Origin: a virus
Virus record (IMG/VR): IMGVR_UViG_3300029319_000098
Span: 1-45,952 of that record
Length of the DNA: 45,952 nucleotides
Direction: 5' to 3' (one strand)
Of this stretch, positions 20,754 to 27,912 are shown in pieces. The notes below the pieces were generated by a model. It was not told the origin of the DNA. It saw nothing but the letters and a program-made list of their open reading frames with translations, and did no database searches. Each line of letters starts with the position of its first letter. The first letter of the stretch is position 1. Both the position numbers and the translations under genes were made by a program.

Positions 20754-21017
20754 CTAGCTCTGAGCTTGTTGATTTAGCTTTGCTACCTCTTCTTCAGTCT
20801 TCCTGATAGCCTCTTGAGCCTCAGGTGTATAGATAGCATACCAAATTCCAAAGAGATTCTCTCCTAGGAATTTCATATCATCAGAGTTAGAGGGCTCTTT
20901 ATCTTTGAGCACATCACTAGCTACAGCTAGTGCTTGTCCAAAGATTAACTGACCTCTAGGGGTTTTAGCAAAAGCTCTAGCTTTTGCTATAGATTCATCA
21001 TTTACTTTTTTAGGCAC
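20754..21017 (-). CDS. Hypothetical protein, 87 residues
   Basis: The GTG at 21017 is preceded by GGAGGTGGCAA. The product MPKKVNDESIAKARAFAKTP is helical, contains FLGENLFGIWYAIYTPEAQE and ends in a Glu/Lys/Gln-rich helix. It overlaps the upstream gene by eight bases. No family recognised. Confidence 0.65.
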   Translation of the reverse strand: MPKKVNDESIAKARAFAKTPRGQLIFGQALAVASDVLKDKEPSNSDDMKFLGENLFGIWYAIYTPEAQEAIRKTEEEVAKLNQQAQS

Positions 21018-21435
21018 TTGCCACCTCCTTTGAGTTTACTAAGTGTTTGGTTGAATTTACTTCAGCGTCGATAAGTTTCATATCATTTAGAGCTTTATCA
21101 AACTCATCTCGAAGACTTTCTACAATGTTTAACAGTCTTTCAGACTGCATAGTCTTGTGTTTCACTGCAACTTTTTGTGTACCTATGGTACAGTCGTTCA
21201 TCTTATCTACTTGTTCAGAACCTACTTCTTCTTTAGAAGACTCGTTCCATTGTTTTTCTTTTTCAAGACCAAGACCCATTGAAAATATATTGAGCACCGT
21301 TATAAGCTCCAGAGGAGTACACATACTCAGTGCTTTAGATGTCATCATCTTTATCTCTTCATATTCAGGTCTTTTTAATAATTCTTCGTCAAGAAAAGCG
21401 AAGAACTCTATTGAATCAGGTTTTTGCATAGCCAT
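21010..21435 (-). CDS. Hypothetical protein, 141 residues
   Basis: The protein starts MAMQKPDSIEFFAFLDEELL after an AGGAGG site; a CAA-repeat leader and a TTGACA promoter precede it. The sequence is helical and acidic, with a C-terminal coiled-coil-like LLNIVESLRDEFDKALNDMK. It heads a leftward transcription unit. Function unknown. Confidence 0.65.
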   Translation of the reverse strand: MAMQKPDSIEFFAFLDEELLKRPEYEEIKMMTSKALSMCTPLELITVLNIFSMGLGLEKEKQWNESSKEEVGSEQVDKMNDCTIGTQKVAVKHKTMQSERLLNIVESLRDEFDKALNDMKLIDAEVNSTKHLVNSKEVASA

Positions 21436-21457
21436 TTGAACCTCCTATCGGTTTGGC

Positions 21458-21530
21458 GTTGTTGTTACGTATATAACTTAAGCGTTTCATTTTGTACTTG
21501 TCAAGGATTTATTTTCTACGTAGTAGAAAA
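21458..21530 (-). promoter_or_regulatory. Promoter cassette A: dyad, CTTGACA promoter, CAA leader
   Basis: Read leftward: a dyad TTTTCTAC-TAC-GTAGAAAA (21530-21512), CTTGACA (TTGACA at 21504-21499), 17 bases, TTAAGT with TATATA just downstream, then an AACAACAAC leader (21466-21458), AGGAGG and the ATG at 21435. The same arrangement recurs at 24.2 kb. The dyad sits where an operator or activator site would, and the palindromic TACGTAGTA core is shared. Confidence 0.6.
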
Positions 21531-21578
21531 AAAATACTTGCTAATATAGGTGAAACCCAAATTGTCAAAAATAATATT

Positions 21579-21791
21579 TCAATCAAGGTCTTCACCTACA
21601 GTCCACAACTCCCCAGTTTCAGGGTCTGTAACCCCAATATAAAAACTGTTTTTCATAGGGTTATGAGCCTCAACACTAGGTCTAAAACCTAGGTCGTGTA
21701 TATTATTTACAGCTGTGTTCATTTTCTTCATCTCTCTACGAAGAGCTCTTTCTCTTGTAGATAACTTTCTATAAGGTTTATCTAGTTTCAT
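21579..21791 (-). CDS. Hypothetical protein, 70 residues
   Basis: The product MKLDKPYRKLSTRERALRRE is basic at the N-terminus and then reads PTDPETGELWTVGEDLD-like at the end (FYIGVTDPETGELWTVGEDL). An AAGGAG site precedes the ATG and the start overlaps the upstream stop. Unknown function. Confidence 0.62.
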   Translation of the reverse strand: MKLDKPYRKLSTRERALRREMKKMNTAVNNIHDLGFRPSVEAHNPMKNSFYIGVTDPETGELWTVGEDLD

Positions 21792-22063
21792 TTCTTTCTC
21801 CTTTTTAGTTTCTTTTTTTGTTCGTCGGTCAAATTAGTCAACTCGTATTTAGTCTTTAGCTGACGGTTAAACTCAACCAACAGTTCATCATATTCTAGGT
21901 CGCTTAATAACTCAGCGTATTGAGCACGCTGGTTTTGATGTTCGTACATTTCCTCAGGACTAGCTCCTGGCTTTAGTAACGGAAACATTTCACGCATTAG
22001 TACACTCTCAAGCACCCAGCTACCATTTAGTTCTACGTCTATAACTTTCTTCTTACTCTTCAT
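21788..22063 (-). CDS. Hypothetical protein, 91 residues
   Basis: I choose the ATG at 22063 (MKSKKKVIDVELNGSWVLES) because GAGG lies six bases upstream and it overlaps the preceding stop; the frame extends to 22183 but that part lies inside the 22,053 gene. It has helices rich in Glu/Tyr/Leu and a Lys-rich end. No domain recognised. Confidence 0.62.
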   Translation of the reverse strand: MKSKKKVIDVELNGSWVLESVLMREMFPLLKPGASPEEMYEHQNQRAQYAELLSDLEYDELLVEFNRQLKTKYELTNLTDEQKKKLKRRKK

Positions 22064-22424
22064 CAATAGCCTCCACTTTGAGCACCTTAACAATCTCCTT
22101 GTTATCATAGCCCAGTCCAGCTTGTGTTCTGTTCCAGAAACTTTCGTATCTGTCTTCAACATCATAACGAGTTTTGCAGTCACTAAATAGTTCGTTCTCT
22201 TCAGTGTCTATAATCTCTTGTCTTATACCACTTTTATCTCCACAATCACGAGGAACACTTGGATACCATAACGTAGTTATGTTTGCTGTTAGTTTATTAT
22301 CGTCGGTAATAAAGCTTTGGTAGATATTGGTTTGGTATTTCTCCTCTCTCAATACACTACCGTTAGCAGTGCCCTCTCTTTTTTGTAGTCTTTTAATACA
22401 AATTGCTGTTACTCTATATATCAT
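22053..22424 (-). CDS. Hypothetical beta-rich protein, 123 residues
   Basis: The protein starts MIYRVTAICIKRLQKREGTA after a GGAGG site. It contains NIYQSFITDDNKLTANITTL and a C-terminal DNKEIVKVLKVEAIDEE, suggesting beta strands. It overlaps both neighbours. Its role is unknown. Confidence 0.62.
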   Translation of the reverse strand: MIYRVTAICIKRLQKREGTANGSVLREEKYQTNIYQSFITDDNKLTANITTLWYPSVPRDCGDKSGIRQEIIDTEENELFSDCKTRYDVEDRYESFWNRTQAGLGYDNKEIVKVLKVEAIDEE

Positions 22425-22789
22425 CTATAACCTCCTATAGGTTCTTGCCATTTATCTTTATCATAATCAGGATAAGTATCGTCCCACCAGTCTTGATAGA
22501 GTTCGTCGAACTCTTCATACTTGAGACTGTTTGAGAGACGTTCGTCTCGAAGAACCTCAGCGTCTTCTTCAAATACTTTGAAGTCTCCAGCTCCAGCATT
22601 AGGGTGCTCAGAGTCTTCTATCCAAGCAAGACCGTCTTTCTGATTATCCAAGATTTTTGTAACCTCTTCTTCAGAAGAGGCTATAATGTCCTGATAGTAG
22701 ACCTTGGTTACTTTCTCTTCAGCAAAGACTCTGAAGACCTTTTTATTGAATCTGTTGTAATTGATATTTTCTGTATTTATTTTACTCAT
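22421..22789 (-). CDS. Hypothetical acidic protein, 122 residues
   Basis: The product MSKINTENINYNRFNKKVFR contains a strand-rich EEKVTKVYYQDIIASSEEEV, then an acidic Asp/Glu/Trp-rich C-terminus (ELYQDWWDDTYPDYDKDKWQ). Its acidity could mimic DNA, as in phage anti-defence proteins, but that is speculation. A GGAGG site precedes the start. Confidence 0.6.
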   Translation of the reverse strand: MSKINTENINYNRFNKKVFRVFAEEKVTKVYYQDIIASSEEEVTKILDNQKDGLAWIEDSEHPNAGAGDFKVFEEDAEVLRDERLSNSLKYEEFDELYQDWWDDTYPDYDKDKWQEPIGGYR

Positions 22790-22994
22790 TGATTACCTCC
22801 AATATATCGTCGACATATATCGACCCAATCTCGTCGAACATACCAACCTCAGAGCCCTTAACGTCGACTAAGAGCACTGTCTTGTACCCTCTACCTTGTT
22901 TGATAGACTCCATAGCAACAGCATTGGTAGGTATACCAAGCTGTCCAGTGATTAACTTTGTTCCTTTTTTGATGTTCTTAAATGATTCTTTCAT
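22782..22994 (-). CDS. Hypothetical protein, 70 residues
   Basis: The product MKESFKNIKKGTKLITGQLG continues as a probable small beta barrel (YKTVLLVDVKGSEVGMFDEI, then IYVDDILEV). A GGAGG site precedes the ATG, which lies directly after the upstream stop. Unknown function. Confidence 0.62.
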   Translation of the reverse strand: MKESFKNIKKGTKLITGQLGIPTNAVAMESIKQGRGYKTVLLVDVKGSEVGMFDEIGSIYVDDILEVINE

Positions 22995-23228
22995 CTATTC
23001 GTCCTCCTCGTTGTAAAAGTGTAAGTGTTTCACTACTTCCATTAACTGGAAGATAGCGTTTAACTCCTCTTCTCCTTGATATTCCATAGCCTCTTCGAGA
23101 CCTCCAGTCTCCTCGATTACTGTCAAGCAATCTTTAAGACTAGTTAGAGTATGTCTAAAGACATTACTAACATATCTAGGGTGATTAAATAACTCTCTAT
23201 CGATTAAACTACCGTCTTCATAAGCCAT
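22995..23228 (-). CDS. Hypothetical acidic helical protein, 77 residues
   Basis: The product MAYEDGSLIDRELFNHPRYV is Glu-rich and helical (LEEAMEYQGEEELNAIFQLM). The leader carries an AACAACAACAA element (23254-23244) and AGGAG. No function recognised. Confidence 0.62.
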   Translation of the reverse strand: MAYEDGSLIDRELFNHPRYVSNVFRHTLTSLKDCLTVIEETGGLEEAMEYQGEEELNAIFQLMEVVKHLHFYNEEDE

Positions 23229-23265
23229 AGTTTTCTCCTTTTATTGTTGTTGTTAATAAATTTTT

Positions 23266-23329
23266 GCCCCTATCTAAACCAATCTCTCTACGGCTAGTGC
23301 TCAACCAAGAGAAAGGGAACTCAAGGGGC
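23266..23329 (-). promoter_or_regulatory. Stem-loop in intergenic leader
   Basis: GCCCCT (23266-23271) pairs with AGGGGC (23324-23329); an inner TCTCT/AGAGA stem closes a loop containing a GTGCTC copy. It sits in the 129-base gap between the 23,358 stop and the next start, and may end or stabilise the upstream message; the run after it is A/T-mixed, not a clean U tract. Confidence 0.45.
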
Positions 23330-23357
23330 GTTAGTTTACTTCGAGCTATTTTTTGCA

Positions 23358-23771
23358 CTACTTAAGTCCTCCTACTACTTTGTAGTAGATATTAATCCCT
23401 GAGGGGGATTCAGCCTCTTCGTGTGAATATCTCACACCAAAGGTGACGAGTTTTTCGTCTTCATCTAACTCTTCTCCAGAGTTAGCATACGTCCAGAGAC
23501 TTCCAGTCTCAGCATACGTTGGTTTTATCGGCACAGAAACCCAGTTAATGTTCAGGTTTCTCTCCAAATCTATGTTGTAGTGTTTGCATATCGAAGATAT
23601 GCAGTAAGACAACTTGTAAAAGAGTTCTTCATTTATCTGAAGTATACCACCAAAATCTTCATCTAGATTGTGAGGTAATCTACCAAAGCCAAGGTCAGAG
23701 ACACTGAAGTCCTCGTCCAGTTTAACCTCAACGGAATTAATGTAATGCTTTACTAAAGAACTGATAGTCAT
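23358..23771 (-). CDS. Hypothetical protein, 137 residues
   Basis: The product MTISSLVKHYINSVEVKLDE ends with KVVGGLK. It has an acidic N-terminus and beta strands such as KLVTFGVRYSHEEAESPSGI. AGGAG precedes the ATG. The gene lies in the early cluster of unknowns, and no family was recognised. Confidence 0.62.
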   Translation of the reverse strand: MTISSLVKHYINSVEVKLDEDFSVSDLGFGRLPHNLDEDFGGILQINEELFYKLSYCISSICKHYNIDLERNLNINWVSVPIKPTYAETGSLWTYANSGEELDEDEKLVTFGVRYSHEEAESPSGINIYYKVVGGLK

Positions 23772-23782
23772 TTGTTTCTCCT

Positions 23783-24109
23783 TTATTTGTTGTCGATAAA
23801 TGCTCTGAGCATATTCTCTAGATTACTTCTAGAGTTGTCTCCAAATTTGTCTCCGTATATCTGAATCGTAGATTCAATAGCGTCCTCTTCTGTATCAGAA
23901 GTAGCCAAACAAGTATTGAACCAGTCCCACATCTCAAGGCTTTCCTTGAGTTCATCTATTTCATCTTTTAAAGAACTTATTGAATCAAGTAATTCTTGAG
24001 GTCTATCCTCTCCTGATGAAATCAGCCTATTATAGTCCTCGGCTCTGTCAATAATATCGTCTACCAGTTTTCCTGGTAGTAGTAAATGGTTGTCATTATA
24101 ATCTGGCAT
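23783..24109 (-). CDS. Hypothetical acidic helical protein, 108 residues
   Basis: The product MPDYNDNHLLLPGKLVDDII has a coiled-coil-like middle (LLDSISSLKDEIDELKESLE) and a C-terminal helix DNSRSNLENMLRAFI. It heads a leftward unit served by promoter cassette B, with CTAGGAGGTAACA before the ATG. Function unknown. Confidence 0.63.
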   Translation of the reverse strand: MPDYNDNHLLLPGKLVDDIIDRAEDYNRLISSGEDRPQELLDSISSLKDEIDELKESLEMWDWFNTCLATSDTEEDAIESTIQIYGDKFGDNSRSNLENMLRAFIDNK

Positions 24110-24136
24110 TGTTACCTCCTAGGTAAAGTTGAAAAT

Positions 24137-24218
24137 TTGTTGTGTTGTTTGCTGTCATCTCCTATTAACTTCGTAAACTTTTTCGGTAATTGTCAAGAAA
24201 TTAATTTACGTAGTAAAT
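24137..24218 (-). promoter_or_regulatory. Promoter cassette B: dyad, CTTGACA promoter, CAA leader
   Basis: Read leftward: dyad ATTTAC-TAC-GTAAAT (24218-24204), TTCTTGACA (TTGACA at 24196-24191), 17 bases, weak CGAAGT (24173-24168) with TTAATA just beyond, then AAACAACACAACAA (24150-24137) and CTAGGAGG. Flanks match cassette A, including AGCAAGTA upstream of the dyad. The duplication is diverged, so the shared parts are probably under selection. Confidence 0.6.
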
Positions 24219-24236
24219 AAATTACTTGCTGAACCT

Positions 24237-24340
24237 CGTACACACGGACACAGGGGGCAAGCCCTTTCCCTCCCAAGGGATTTTGTGCGTGCATACAAAT
24301 TCAAGAGGTTAGGCTCTTGTAATTTGTCCCTCCGTGTACG
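24237..24340 (+). ncRNA. Structured RNA candidate followed by its own terminator
   Basis: A closing stem pairs CGTACACACGGA (24237-24248) with TCCGTGTACG (24331-24340), with a two-base bulge. Inside are a 13-bp hairpin, ACAAATTCAAGAG (24295-24307) with CTCTTG-T-AATTTGT (24314-24327), and a G/C-rich arm closed by CACA (24249-24252) with TGTG (24284-24287), in which GGG-CAAG-CCC and CCCTT-AAGGG are mutually exclusive. The plus-strand reading ends directly in a strong terminator. The minus strand would also fold, so orientation is not certain. No known RNA family was recognised. Confidence 0.5.
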
Positions 24341-24344
24341 TGTA

Positions 24345-24384
24345 AAAAAGCAGGTGCTTCTTTTCAAGAAGCACCGTGCTTTTT
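24345..24384. terminator. Strong bidirectional terminator
   Basis: GGTGCTTCTT (24353-24362), loop TTC, AAGAAGCACC (24366-24375), flanked by AAAAAGCA (24345-24352) and TGCTTTTT (24377-24384) pairing around a single bulged G. Uridine runs are produced in both directions. It ends the AAA+ partner gene on the left-going strand, and could end the plus-strand structured RNA. Confidence 0.85.
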
Positions 24385-24395
24385 GAGCACCAAGT

Positions 24396-25406
24396 CTAAT
24401 CACTGAGCACCCCACTAACTCCAGTTACAATAGTCTCGAGATTGTCATTGTAGCCGATGTAAACATCGGAGTCAGTAAATTCCTGGAAGAACTCTTGGTT
24501 CTTCTCTGGTTTAGCTAACGAGTAAAAGCTAGCTCCCATACCACCACCAAAACCGAGACAGTAGTAACGGAAACTGAAGATGAAGTCCCTGAAGATACTT
24601 GCTGAAGAGAAAGTCATCATCTTGGTTTCATTGATAGTTTCGTCTGGTCTCTTGCCGACGAAAGAGATACAAGAAACCAGGTCTTTGCTGTTGCTAAAGT
24701 TGGTTGTGCCGAACTTAATCTCAGTAGAATATCCTCGAGATTCAAGCTGTTTAGCAACGGCAACAGCAACACAGCTAGACTGTAAAACAGTCTCTGGTCT
24801 CTCATCTCCTAGCCTTGCTAGGTCGATGAAGAAACGAACAGTCATAGACTGGTTGTTCCTCTTCATTGACTCCATAGGGTCAATGCCAGACATAGCTTTG
24901 TCTATGTTGACGAGATAGCCAGCTAAATCAGCTCGACGTTTACGTCGGCAATCTTGACCAATAGAGCCGAGTTTCTCTAAAGTGTCAGGGTTAGACTCCA
25001 GTCTAGACTGGACGTTAGTATAGTAGTCGAATATACTCTGAGTAGTAAAGCCTCGGTCTACTATCTCTAGCTGGTGCTCTCTTCCTCTGATGTCGAGGAC
25101 ATCAGAATTAGTCCAGTCCTCTTCATACTCTGTCGAGGTATTCGTCCAGCAATCATAGCCCAGAGTGCTAAAGTCGACACCATTAGCTCTTTCACCTTGT
25201 TCTACCAACGATAGAAAGTCCTCGAAACTCTGGAACTCAAACCGTTTACTGTCGGTAACGGAACGACTGAGCACTCTGTGAGCCTCTCTGGCAAACTTTG
25301 GTTTACCGTCGATAAACGTCAGCTTGTCTCGGAGAGCTCGAGAATCGAGCTCTCTAGTCTTGAAGTCGACGAGTTCAGCGATATTAGATTTAACCTTAAC
25401 CGACAT
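24396..25406 (-). CDS. AAA+ partner protein (DUF7192-like, degenerate VWA-like core)
   Basis: The 336-residue protein follows the AAA+ gene after a one-base gap with GGGAGGTAG as ribosome site. It has FEFQSFEDFLSLVEQGER near 56-73. The C-terminal half reads RRADLAGYLVNIDKAMSGID, then MTVRFFIDLARLG and SCVAVAVAKQLESRGYSTEI, an order that resembles VWA-like folds but lacks a DxSxS metal site. From memory it resembles phage proteins annotated DUF7192; this was not searched. By analogy with CobS/CobT and MoxR/VWA pairs it would be the ATPase's partner. Confidence 0.62.
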   Translation of the reverse strand: MSVKVKSNIAELVDFKTRELDSRALRDKLTFIDGKPKFAREAHRVLSRSVTDSKRFEFQSFEDFLSLVEQGERANGVDFSTLGYDCWTNTSTEYEEDWTNSDVLDIRGREHQLEIVDRGFTTQSIFDYYTNVQSRLESNPDTLEKLGSIGQDCRRKRRADLAGYLVNIDKAMSGIDPMESMKRNNQSMTVRFFIDLARLGDERPETVLQSSCVAVAVAKQLESRGYSTEIKFGTTNFSNSKDLVSCISFVGKRPDETINETKMMTFSSASIFRDFIFSFRYYCLGFGGGMGASFYSLAKPEKNQEFFQEFTDSDVYIGYNDNLETIVTGVSGVLSD

Positions 25407-25407
25407 A

Positions 25408-26790
25408 CTAAGCTACCTCCCTAAGAAACTGACTAGTGAAGTTGTAACTAAACATATCGAGCTTAGAGTCGTAGTCTCGGTTAACTCCTATCGTCTTTAA
25501 CTGGTCGTCGGTCCAGTTCTGAAGATACAGAGCAACAGCTAAATCAGAACTAAAGTTCTGTTGTCTGATTAGCTTAGCTCCTTGAGCATAAGCTCTGACT
25601 CCTAATAGCTGTCGAATATTACGTCTTGAGTCGTCGATACAACTCTTGATGTAATCAAGCTTTAGCCTTAAGGCTACTACCTCAGTGTCAACAGGTAGAG
25701 TCATATCTCGATACTGTATGGACTCTGGGTAACTTACTTTCTCGTCGGTAAGTCCCATAACGAAGTTAGTAATTCGTCTATCTTGTCCCATATAGAACTT
25801 AGAACCGACGAATCTATCCAGCGTAGCTGAGTCCAGTTGTTTTCTTTGGTATCCAGAAGAGCCCCCTGAACCATTTCCCCAGGTATTTGCTGTGCAAATA
25901 ATGTAGCAATTCTCGTTACGAATTGCTTGCTCAGCTCCTCTTCTCAATGGACAGCTTATTAGGTCGTTAGCTAATAGACTGTTGAGCCCTACTAGGACAT
26001 CAGGGTCGGCATTGTCGAACTCGTCGAGGAGTATAACTCCTCCGTTCTCAACTATGTTGAGGAATTCAGTGTCGAGGAATTCCCCAGTCATAACCATACG
26101 ACCAGAGAGATGAGCCTCGGAAACTCCACTACTTAGTGAGATAGAGTAGAACTCTTTGTCGACGTCAAAGCCTAGTTTCTGAGCTATTGTCTCGGCAATA
26201 GTCGTCTTACCAGAACCAGCTCCACCGACGATAAGAGCTTGTCTATTCGTCTCGACAATAGCCTGAAGTAACGGTAATTGCCAGTGCTCAAGCTTATCAC
26301 TACTCGACGGTGTAGTGACTTGATTAGGTTGCTTTGCCGTCATTAAAGCCTGGTGAATCATCTGGTTCACCTCGTCTTTGGTTACAGTATCGTCACTACT
26401 GTCTGGACTAGACTGTTCAGTGTCGTTACTACTGAGCTCCTCAGCTTGCTGAGCTAGGTTAACTCTCTCGACGTTAGGTTTACTAGTCGACGGTGTAGTA
26501 GGACTACCAGACGGTGTAGGGTTACTACTCGACGGTGTAGTACCTCCAACTGTCGACGGTAAGTTATTGTCCTCACAAAGCTCCTTGAGGTTCTTCGTGA
26601 TACTAACTACGTCGGCTTTAGGGGCTCGCTTTATAGCGTCCCTCAGGTCTTTGACCTGGTCTCGACTGAGGTTACCATTGTCACTCAATGTCGTTACTAA
26701 TTGCCTAGCAAATGGTCTAAGCTCTTTTTTGAGGTTCATACCTCCAATGTCGTCACTATTGGGTGACGCTTTCAATGTAGTTTTCAACAT
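25408..26790 (-). CDS. MoxR/CobS-like AAA+ ATPase
   Basis: The 460-residue protein has a helical N-terminus, a long Ser/Thr/Pro linker (about 80-165), and an AAA+ core. The Walker A is GGAGSGKTT (189-197), Walker B is ILLDEFD (253-259), sensor 1 is CTAN (299-302) and an arginine finger candidate is in LDRFVG (about 325-330). The insert EAHLSGRMVM is typical of MoxR/CobS-like members. These ATPases remodel a partner carried by the adjacent gene, here the 24,396 product. The DNA is visibly GC-richer than the structural arm. A CAA-repeat leader precedes it. Confidence 0.88.
   Translation of the reverse strand: MLKTTLKASPNSDDIGGMNLKKELRPFARQLVTTLSDNGNLSRDQVKDLRDAIKRAPKADVVSITKNLKELCEDNNLPSTVGGTTPSSSNPTPSGSPTTPSTSKPNVERVNLAQQAEELSSNDTEQSSPDSSDDTVTKDEVNQMIHQALMTAKQPNQVTTPSSSDKLEHWQLPLLQAIVETNRQALIVGGAGSGKTTIAETIAQKLGFDVDKEFYSISLSSGVSEAHLSGRMVMTGEFLDTEFLNIVENGGVILLDEFDNADPDVLVGLNSLLANDLISCPLRRGAEQAIRNENCYIICTANTWGNGSGGSSGYQRKQLDSATLDRFVGSKFYMGQDRRITNFVMGLTDEKVSYPESIQYRDMTLPVDTEVVALRLKLDYIKSCIDDSRRNIRQLLGVRAYAQGAKLIRQQNFSSDLAVALYLQNWTDDQLKTIGVNRDYDSKLDMFSYNFTSQFLREVA
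26297..26545 (-). repeat. Short repeats coding the Ser/Thr/Pro linker
   Basis: Variants of CTCGACGGTGTAGT recur about four times (near 26302, 26492, 26510 and 26531 on the plus strand), encoding TTPSS-like units of the ATPase linker. The repeats are coding, in frame, and look like local slippage or recombination events. Confidence 0.65.
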
Positions 26791-26844
26791 TTTGAAAACT
26801 CCTTTCCCCTCGGTAAAGAGGGCGTTGTTGTTGTTGGTTTGCCG

Positions 26845-27438
26845 TTATAAAACCTGGCTTGCAATCTGGTTGACAAATTCCCTATCCTCGTCGGTCATAG
26901 AGTCCCAGCGTCTGAAATTTTCCAGGTCGGTGAAACTTGCTATATCGTCAGGATAGTGACTAGGTACAGCGATTGCCTCATCTTCGATGACGATGAGCTT
27001 GAACTCATCTTTGTCGTCGATAAAGAGGGGCTCAGCGTTAAGCTCAGCCCTCTCACTTACTACGTCGGTTAAGTCTACAACGTCGGTTGTAGTGTCACCA
27101 ATGTCGACACTATTGAGCTCAGCTTGAGCACCAATCTCGTCGATATTGTTTGCTACCTCGATACAGTAGCCGATGAACTCCCTTACTGGGTCTTTGTCGT
27201 CGGTAAAGCCCATTAAGCTGGTGAGCTCCGTTACTATATCGTCGGCTATAGTGATTCCTGCCTCGTCGATAAACTCGTTACAATAGGCTGGGTCAATCTG
27301 GCTAATGCCGTCGGTATTAGTGCCAAACTCGGTTACATTGAGCACCAAATCCCTTATACCGTCGGCATAAGAGCTCTGGAGGAACTCGATAGCGTTGTTT
27401 GCACTGTCATTATCGTTACAAAATGTGTTATTTTTCAT
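26845..27438 (-). CDS. Acidic early protein of unknown function
   Basis: I choose the ATG at 27438 (MKNNTFCNDNDSANNAIEFL) because AAAGGAAAA lies ten bases upstream; the frame extends to 27552 but that part reads as basic, low-complexity sequence. The 197-residue product is very acidic, with ten or more Asp pairs and repeated VVDLTDVV-type segments. It is the first gene of the leftward arm and so probably early. Its acidity would suit a DNA-mimic or inhibitor of host enzymes, which is speculative. GC content is higher than in structural genes. Confidence 0.65.
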   Translation of the reverse strand: MKNNTFCNDNDSANNAIEFLQSSYADGIRDLVLNVTEFGTNTDGISQIDPAYCNEFIDEAGITIADDIVTELTSLMGFTDDKDPVREFIGYCIEVANNIDEIGAQAELNSVDIGDTTTDVVDLTDVVSERAELNAEPLFIDDKDEFKLIVIEDEAIAVPSHYPDDIASFTDLENFRRWDSMTDEDREFVNQIASQVL

Positions 27439-27523
27439 TGTCTTTTTTTTCCTTTTTCGAGACGTTACGTTACCCCTCAGGGTCTCCCTCGAGGTGTCTC
27501 GGTTTGTCCTCGAGAGGTATATA

Positions 27524-27552
27524 AACGTATGGAGACTTTTCGAAAGTGTCAA
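27524..27552 (-). promoter_or_regulatory. Putative first leftward promoter
   Basis: On the minus strand GCTTGACA (TTGACA at 27552-27547), 17 bases, TACGTT (27529-27524), with TATATA just downstream. It would give a leader of about 80 bases before the acidic early gene at 27438, containing CTCGAGG inverted repeats. The -35 is perfect, the -10 poor, so an activator may be needed. Confidence 0.5.
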
Positions 27553-27625
27553 GCACTAATTTGCTTTATCGTCGGTAAAGGAGGGTTGTTTTCTAGCTGG
27601 AACGAGGACAAATTAGAGGAAAAAG

Positions 27626-27790
27626 GTGCTCAAAAAAAGTGCTCAGTGCTCATTAAAAACCGACTAGCTGGTCGGTTTAAGTCATTGGTCTAAGTGCTCA
27701 TATTGCTAACGTTACCGACGGTGCTCAACGAACTTTTTCTAACGTAATCTAGGCACAGGGGGGGCTTTGCACACAAAAAAAGAGGAGCAC
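27626..27790. repeat. Cluster of RGTGCTCA elements
   Basis: GTGCTC occurs at 27626, 27639, 27646, 27694 and 27721, and inverted (GAGCAC) at 27785. The extended form is R-GTGCTC-A in five of six. Spacing of the first three is 13 and 7 bases. The cluster is non-coding, so codon use does not explain it; about 59 copies occur in the window. It resembles iterons or protein-binding sites. Confidence 0.65.
27657..27678 (-). terminator. Hairpin terminator in the control region
   Basis: AAACCGAC (27657-27664), loop TAGCTG, GTCGGTTT (27671-27678). In the leftward direction it ends GTCGGTTTTT, giving a five-base U-run. It would terminate transcripts from the 27,936 promoter after about 250 bases. Confidence 0.7.
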
Positions 27791-27810
27791 ACATAGTTAC
27801 GTTATTTTTT
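27740..27810 (+). other. Long-loop stem followed by a T-run
   Basis: TAACGTAA (27740-27747) pairs with TTACGTTA (27797-27804), followed by TTTTTT (27805-27810). The roughly 49-base loop contains CACAGGGGGGG and GCACACAAA, resembling a part of the structured RNA at 24.25 kb. It may be a rightward terminator or an RNA domain. Confidence 0.45.
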
Positions 27811-27861
27811 AGGTTTTACTAGGTCTCTGTAAGTATTGATATTGCTAGAGATAGAAATTCT

Positions 27862-27905
27862 GATAACTATATAACTATACTAGCTAGTAGGTTGGTGTAG
27901 TTATC
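27862..27905. other. 44-bp imperfect palindrome
   Basis: GATAACTA (27862-27869) and TAGTTATC (27898-27905) flank the perfect palindrome TACTAGCTAGTA (27878-27889); all share one centre. CTAGCTAG dyads also occur near 19.55 kb. It lies just downstream of a leftward promoter and could be an operator or a cruciform at an origin. Confidence 0.55.
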
Positions 27906-27912
27906 CTAACTA

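Follow-up and report, generated by a model that had tools for sequence, protein, structure and literature searches.

Background

The put antitermination RNAs of phage HK022 are phage-encoded, cis-acting RNAs of adjacent hairpins in early regions, and the put sites are located just after early promoters, upstream of terminators. Orphan candidate structured RNA motifs have been catalogued by comparative genomics (PMC2864571).

The locus described here, positions 24237–24384 of virus record IMGVR_UViG_3300029319_000098, was analyzed within the whole 45,952-nt stretch (the window). The original prediction, a structured RNA with a plus-strand terminator and possibly an independent phage small RNA, was supported in part: the segment is a conserved, structured, non-coding element, and the plus-strand small RNA did not hold up. 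With moderate confidence, we read it as a putative cis-acting RNA element of the leftward read-through message, part of an inter-operon control region.

Genome context and relatives

The 45,952-base virus record belongs to a tailed phage that encodes a P22-like portal, an SU10-like capsid protein, a DnaB helicase, and an Erf annealing protein. From 27.5 down to 13.7 kb, the supported genes are read leftward (ORF list); on one side of the element is a three-gene operon (unknown; AAA, CobS-like; DUF7192), and on the other the next operon, both leftward. The first of these genes (26845–27552, minus strand) is a mechanical ORF with a homologue in relative L003, its likelier start being an in-frame ATG near 27438; the second encodes an AAA ATPase, CobS-like/AAA_5 (25408–26790, minus strand; Pfam AAA_5, E 8.8e-16; phrog_249, E 3e-32), in a gene order that matches the relatives; the last, DUF7192 (24396–25406, minus strand; Pfam DUF7192, E 3e-7; homologues in the same gene order), lies directly upstream of the element. 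The next operon opens with a gene for a 108-aa protein of unknown product (23783–24109, minus strand; ORF list). The expected placement was thereby recovered: the element has a transcription unit on either side, with a leftward terminator at one end and a TTGACA promoter at the other.

Two features of the operon are recorded separately. The DUF7192 protein (24396–25406, minus strand), beside a CobS-like AAA protein, has the look of a putative degenerate von Willebrand A domain partner (FFIDxA... segment). The first gene (26845–27438, minus strand) has 61% amino-acid identity with L003, yet 83% identity at fourfold sites (two operon neighbours, 53–62%); this value, unlike that of the neighbours, suggests that a nucleotide-level constraint may act on the gene.

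Relatives were collected by querying with the AAA and DUF7192 proteins and with alignments of them; the gene pair turned up in roughly a dozen other IMG/VR loci. DUF7192 identity is about 66% for the nearest, L050/L003, 51–53% for L010, L007, and L008, and 41% for L009; more distant are L012, L013, L011, and L014/L015, then L004/L005 (35%). The intergenic region is ~90% identical between the window and L050 over 298 aligned columns; fourfold degenerate sites are 53% identical in the flanking AAA gene and 62% in the DUF7192 gene. Read leftward from DUF7192, the loci repeat one architecture: the terminator comes first, followed by TGAGCAC motifs, then a hairpin whose sequence varies and a block rich in GC; an AT-rich palindrome with TTGACA at its end leads into the promoter. 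The palindrome is absent at L012, L013, and L015. No close relative was found among annotated phages by DNA or protein (region, DUF7192 protein), and no match among cellular genomes by palindrome pattern or DUF7192 profile.

An RNA following DUF7192 in every relative, as with Ro60 and Y RNAs, was considered and rejected: the L005/L004 intergenic region lacks the shared fold, and L012, L013, and L015 are near background. At the equivalent intergenic place, L005 (8378–8840) and L004 (5793–6229) carry a 460-nt run of hairpins (z −12.6), the stems of which differ between the two yet remain paired; a 140-aa open frame spans this run, and 2-nt indels shift its frame. Operon leaders often have a long closing stem just before a AAAATTTAATAACnACGAAGGAG-like sequence containing the ribosome site (L010, 8740–8940; L012, 9010–9120, e.g., CCGAGGG...CCCTCGG; L013, 8950–9090; L015, 8600–8750; window, 27437–27540); these closing stems are possibly leader RNA.

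Folding of the segment

The predicted pieces were all located: the closing stem, the 13-bp hairpin with one bulge (ACAAATT-CAAGAG/CTCTTG-T-AATTTGT), the alternative pairings GGG-CAAG-CCC and CCCTT/AAGGG of the G/C arm, and the terminator. The 13-bp hairpin (24295–24327, minus strand) has the loop CCUAAC, and its core CAAGAGCCTAACCTCTTG is identical in L050. The outer closing stem was rejected as a conserved helix; it is partly gapped and broken in L050, and a different, inner helix is the conserved one.

The strong folding of 24237–24384 is real. The 148-nt stretch reaches −63.2 kcal/mol on the plus strand (z −6.7) and −65.7 kcal/mol on the minus strand (z about −7.4 to −7.7), values matched by 0 of 200 shuffles on either strand; a scan of the record in 619 windows of 148 nt puts it at the top for the minus strand and third for the plus strand. 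Some of this signal is regional, as the surrounding 19.4–27.5 kb is itself hairpin-rich (mean minus-strand z −2.0, vs. −0.4 outside it). Another candidate non-coding segment, 27655–27910, is unstructured (z −0.35).

The view that no gene lies in the element was upheld. A hidden gene was sought in a 69-aa minus-strand ORF, the frame of which is broken in the nearest relative, L050, by gaps of 1, 2, and 5 nt. The suggested comparison with Rfam gave no matching family in the window (Rfam 15, gathering and permissive searches; best sub-threshold match, E 0.14). Identity as a tRNA or tmRNA was searched for and rejected.

Terminator

The intrinsic terminator of the AAA-DUF7192 operon is located at 24344–24384 (minus strand; hairpin 24353–24375, U-tract just to its left). 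On the plus strand, the hairpin is GGTGCTTCTT-ttc-AAGAAGCACC with outer A/T tracts; read leftward, it consists of a GC-containing stem and a short loop, GGTGCTTCTT-gaa-AAGAAGCACC, followed by the U-run TGCTTTTTT. In the window, the terminator qualifies in both directions. Seven relatives (L007, L008, L009, L010, L012, L013, L015) have a terminator at the equivalent place with a clear U-tract leftward only, and its position at the operon end is conserved; because the U-tracts of the relatives point leftward, the terminator is assigned to the AAA-DUF7192 operon. The leftward strand also bears both the upstream and the downstream genes. The strong plus-strand terminator of the original prediction therefore stands as a rightward-qualifying signal in this record, and does not stand as one dedicated to that strand. 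In L050, the stem is kept, with two-sided compensatory changes at 3 of 16 pairs relative to the window, and the U-tract is lost; read-through should thus be the rule there.

An independent plus-strand phage small RNA ending at this terminator (24353–24384) is, on these results, very improbable. The T-run next to the hairpin and the plus-strand z of −6.7 in this record speak for it; against this, the plus-strand T-run is missing in L050, and the seven other terminators face leftward. A sigma-70 scan gave no plus-strand promoter match near the element; in a separate comparison, candidates reach only 8–9 of 12 positions and are poorly placed, that at the palindrome being TTGTCA-18-TAAATA (8/12). 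The plus-strand consensus fold of the conserved core, described below, is also weak.

Conserved three-way-junction core

The conserved part of the element is a core of ~66 nt (24234–24299, minus strand) that is predicted to form a three-way junction of a closing helix, a UCCCU/AGGGA hairpin, and a GGG/CCC hairpin. The same fold is found in the window and L050, and a related one in L007. The junction is the minimum-energy fold of the excised core in the window (−24.8 kcal/mol) and L050 (−25.5 kcal/mol); the core of L007 (−21.4 kcal/mol) has a like closing helix and one inner hairpin. The complementary strand takes other folds, at −21.3 (window), −15.6 (L050), and −12.2 kcal/mol (L007). Z-scores of the single sequences are modest (−2.2, −2.1, and −1.7).

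Covariance folding of both strands, as had been proposed, favors the minus strand, in three genomes only. Given the window and L050, RNAalifold selects three structures: the terminator stem, six base pairs at the core of the CAAGAG hairpin, and the inner three-way junction. For the three-sequence core, it gives −18.99 on the minus strand vs. −6.46 on the plus strand, with column-shuffle z-scores of the consensus fold of −4.3 (0 of 300) and −1.0 (43 of 300), respectively; on the plus strand, the consensus fold thus collapses. In this alignment of three sequences, 6 of 25 pairs have changes on both sides, the compensatory pattern of a structured cis RNA on the minus strand; 86.7% of cells pair, and 0 of 500 letter shuffles attain the observed pairing. 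The inner hairpins are invariant between the window and L050 and hence contribute no covariation between these two. The minus-strand fold is kept through G.U changes in the three genomes; over the whole element, a G.U strand test gives 8:1 with one reference and 1:4 with the other, its direction flipping with the reference. A covariance model of the core, run over 12 full records and 456 kb of fetched loci, matches these three genomes only, and the fold is absent from L008, L010, and L009 despite the same gene order and promoter palindrome.

The 13-bp hairpin (24295–24327) and the junction share positions 24295–24299, so that the two structures compete; this echoes, at another place, the mutually exclusive pairings first noted in the G/C arm.

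The compact conserved fold and the lack of an ORF would also suit an independent, trans-acting RNA of the minus strand, either cut from the read-through message or transcribed from a promoter that escaped recognition. We consider this improbable, as no convincing promoter match follows the terminator and no leftward terminator follows the core. With no promoter between terminator and element, transcription of the core in this record would be by read-through only; from gene order and read-through, we infer that its leftward transcription is likely.

Promoter and palindrome

Left of the core lies an operator-like, AT-rich palindrome (24194–24228; 24191–24228 including TTGACA on the minus strand), which overlaps the −35 hexamer TTGACA of the next leftward operon (24191–24196, minus strand) and is found in five relatives. 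The −10 is weak in this record; in L007, L008, and L010, the −10 TAAGAT sits 18 nt beyond TTGACA, and spacing is 17 or 18 overall. The palindrome is nearly invariant, AAGTAATTTATTTAC-NNN-GTAAATTAATTnCTTGACA, with one or two promoter-like sites per genome, and is likely a phage operator. Two sites each occur in L010 (8716 and 10391), L007 (8615 and 10504), and L009 (8562 and 10030). In these three relatives, the second palindrome-TTGACA copy is at a promoter-like site without the GC-rich block or the element, which makes the palindrome-TTGACA unit a separate module.

This bears on the main rival explanation, control at the DNA level, by which the conserved stretch would be the upstream part of the next operon's promoter (with sites for a phage regulator, or a piece of a replication origin), its fold being incidental. 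That is a possibility to be taken seriously, though we do not favor it. The stretch abuts the palindrome and the −35, lies upstream of the promoter's start site, and is conserved at the sequence level in invariant blocks, all of which speaks for this reading; preservation of the fold through G.U changes, specifically on the minus strand and in three genomes, speaks against it, and in three relatives the second palindrome-promoter copies do without the stretch.

Hairpin-rich tract

Perfect short inverted repeats amount to about 10–14 per kb across 19.4–27.5 kb (fewer at the edges) vs. about 2 in shuffles, a five- to sixfold excess; outside the tract, counts are near background. Against synonymous-codon shuffles, the AAA gene has 18 vs. 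2.9 and the DUF7192 gene 12 vs. 3.2, values reached by 0 of 100 shuffles. Over the tract, perfect stems number 62 vs. 13.5 in synonymous shuffles, stems with one G.U 11 vs. 6.5, and stems with one A.C 11 vs. 8.6. Turnover between relatives affects many of these hairpins, but some are conserved and carry motifs.

Template switching can create and mend perfect stems (PMC8794818), and the excess of perfect over wobble stems fits such a process. The element might then be a functionless by-product of hairpin-making mutation over the whole 19–28 kb tract; the regional enrichment, the preference for perfect stems, and the turnover all point that way. Since the stretch is more conserved than adjoining synonymous sites, and its closing helix is kept via G.U pairs, which this process does not favor, we judge the by-product explanation unlikely.

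A distinct class of dispersed stem-loops was observed on the sense strand, with YRACR at the centre of a loop of 7 or 9 nt and a variable stem of 5–7 bp, as in CTTTA(ccgacga)TAAAG. They are located in early genes of the window (20754–27575, minus strand) and of L003, L007, L008, L009, and L010. The tract genes of the window hold 12 vs. 0.5 in synonymous shuffles, and none occurs in its other genes; the window and the five relatives have 12, 8, 10, 11, 6, and 10 vs. 0.25–0.95 in synonymous shuffles. The sense-to-antisense ratio is 57:7. The shape of the stem-loop is close to that of an anticodon arm.

The heptamer TGAGCAC occurs 37 times in the window vs. 4.5 expected (eightfold), e.g., at 27626–27727 and 24384–24410. 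It is 10- to 20-fold over expectation in the members of the AAA-DUF7192 clade examined, and absent or at expectation in unrelated contigs and outgroups.

It may tentatively be proposed that the early leftward messages are built as RNA as well as code, the junction separating operons and the YRACR hairpins being recognition hairpins written through synonymous codons. If so, a phage or host RNA-binding partner for the hairpins, or a decoy for an RNA-cutting defence, would be expected; the hairpins would then be an RNA signal within the coding regions of a double-stranded DNA phage, and their binding partner could be searched for.

Proposed role and comparison with known systems

The preferred reading, a cis-acting element of the read-through message, places a control segment between two leftward early operons. 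The intrinsic terminator ends the AAA-DUF7192 operon, followed by the conserved stretch, the operator-like palindrome, and the sigma-70-like promoter of the next operon. As minus-strand RNA, the stretch would fold into the ~66-nt three-way junction, preceded by a hairpin competing for five bases. In messages that pass the terminator, the core may act in cis as a barrier or as a processing or stability signal that parts the messages of the two operons. A riboswitch or leader would lie between promoter and gene, whereas this element precedes the TTGACA promoter. With a terminator before it and a promoter after it, its position fits neither a leader nor a small RNA driven by a promoter. Action in cis on read-through is the most economical reading. 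Should the core prove to be a genuine RNA, this uncultured phage lineage would have a new structured RNA acting in cis, at a point where two early operons need separation though one reads toward the other.

The core resembles the orphan motifs known from comparative genomics (PMC2864571) in being a short intergenic fold with compensatory changes and no assigned function; it differs in having three members only, in phages, with no Rfam match, and in following a terminator rather than lying in a leader. The terminator agrees with intrinsic (Rho-independent) terminators in its GC-containing hairpin and U-tract at the operon end, leftward in nearly all relatives; unlike these, it is bidirectional here, and the nearest relative, L050, keeps the stem without the U-tract. 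With the HK022 put RNAs, the element shares a phage origin, a proposed action in cis, and adjacent hairpins in an early region; unlike the put sites, it is located after a terminator and before a promoter.
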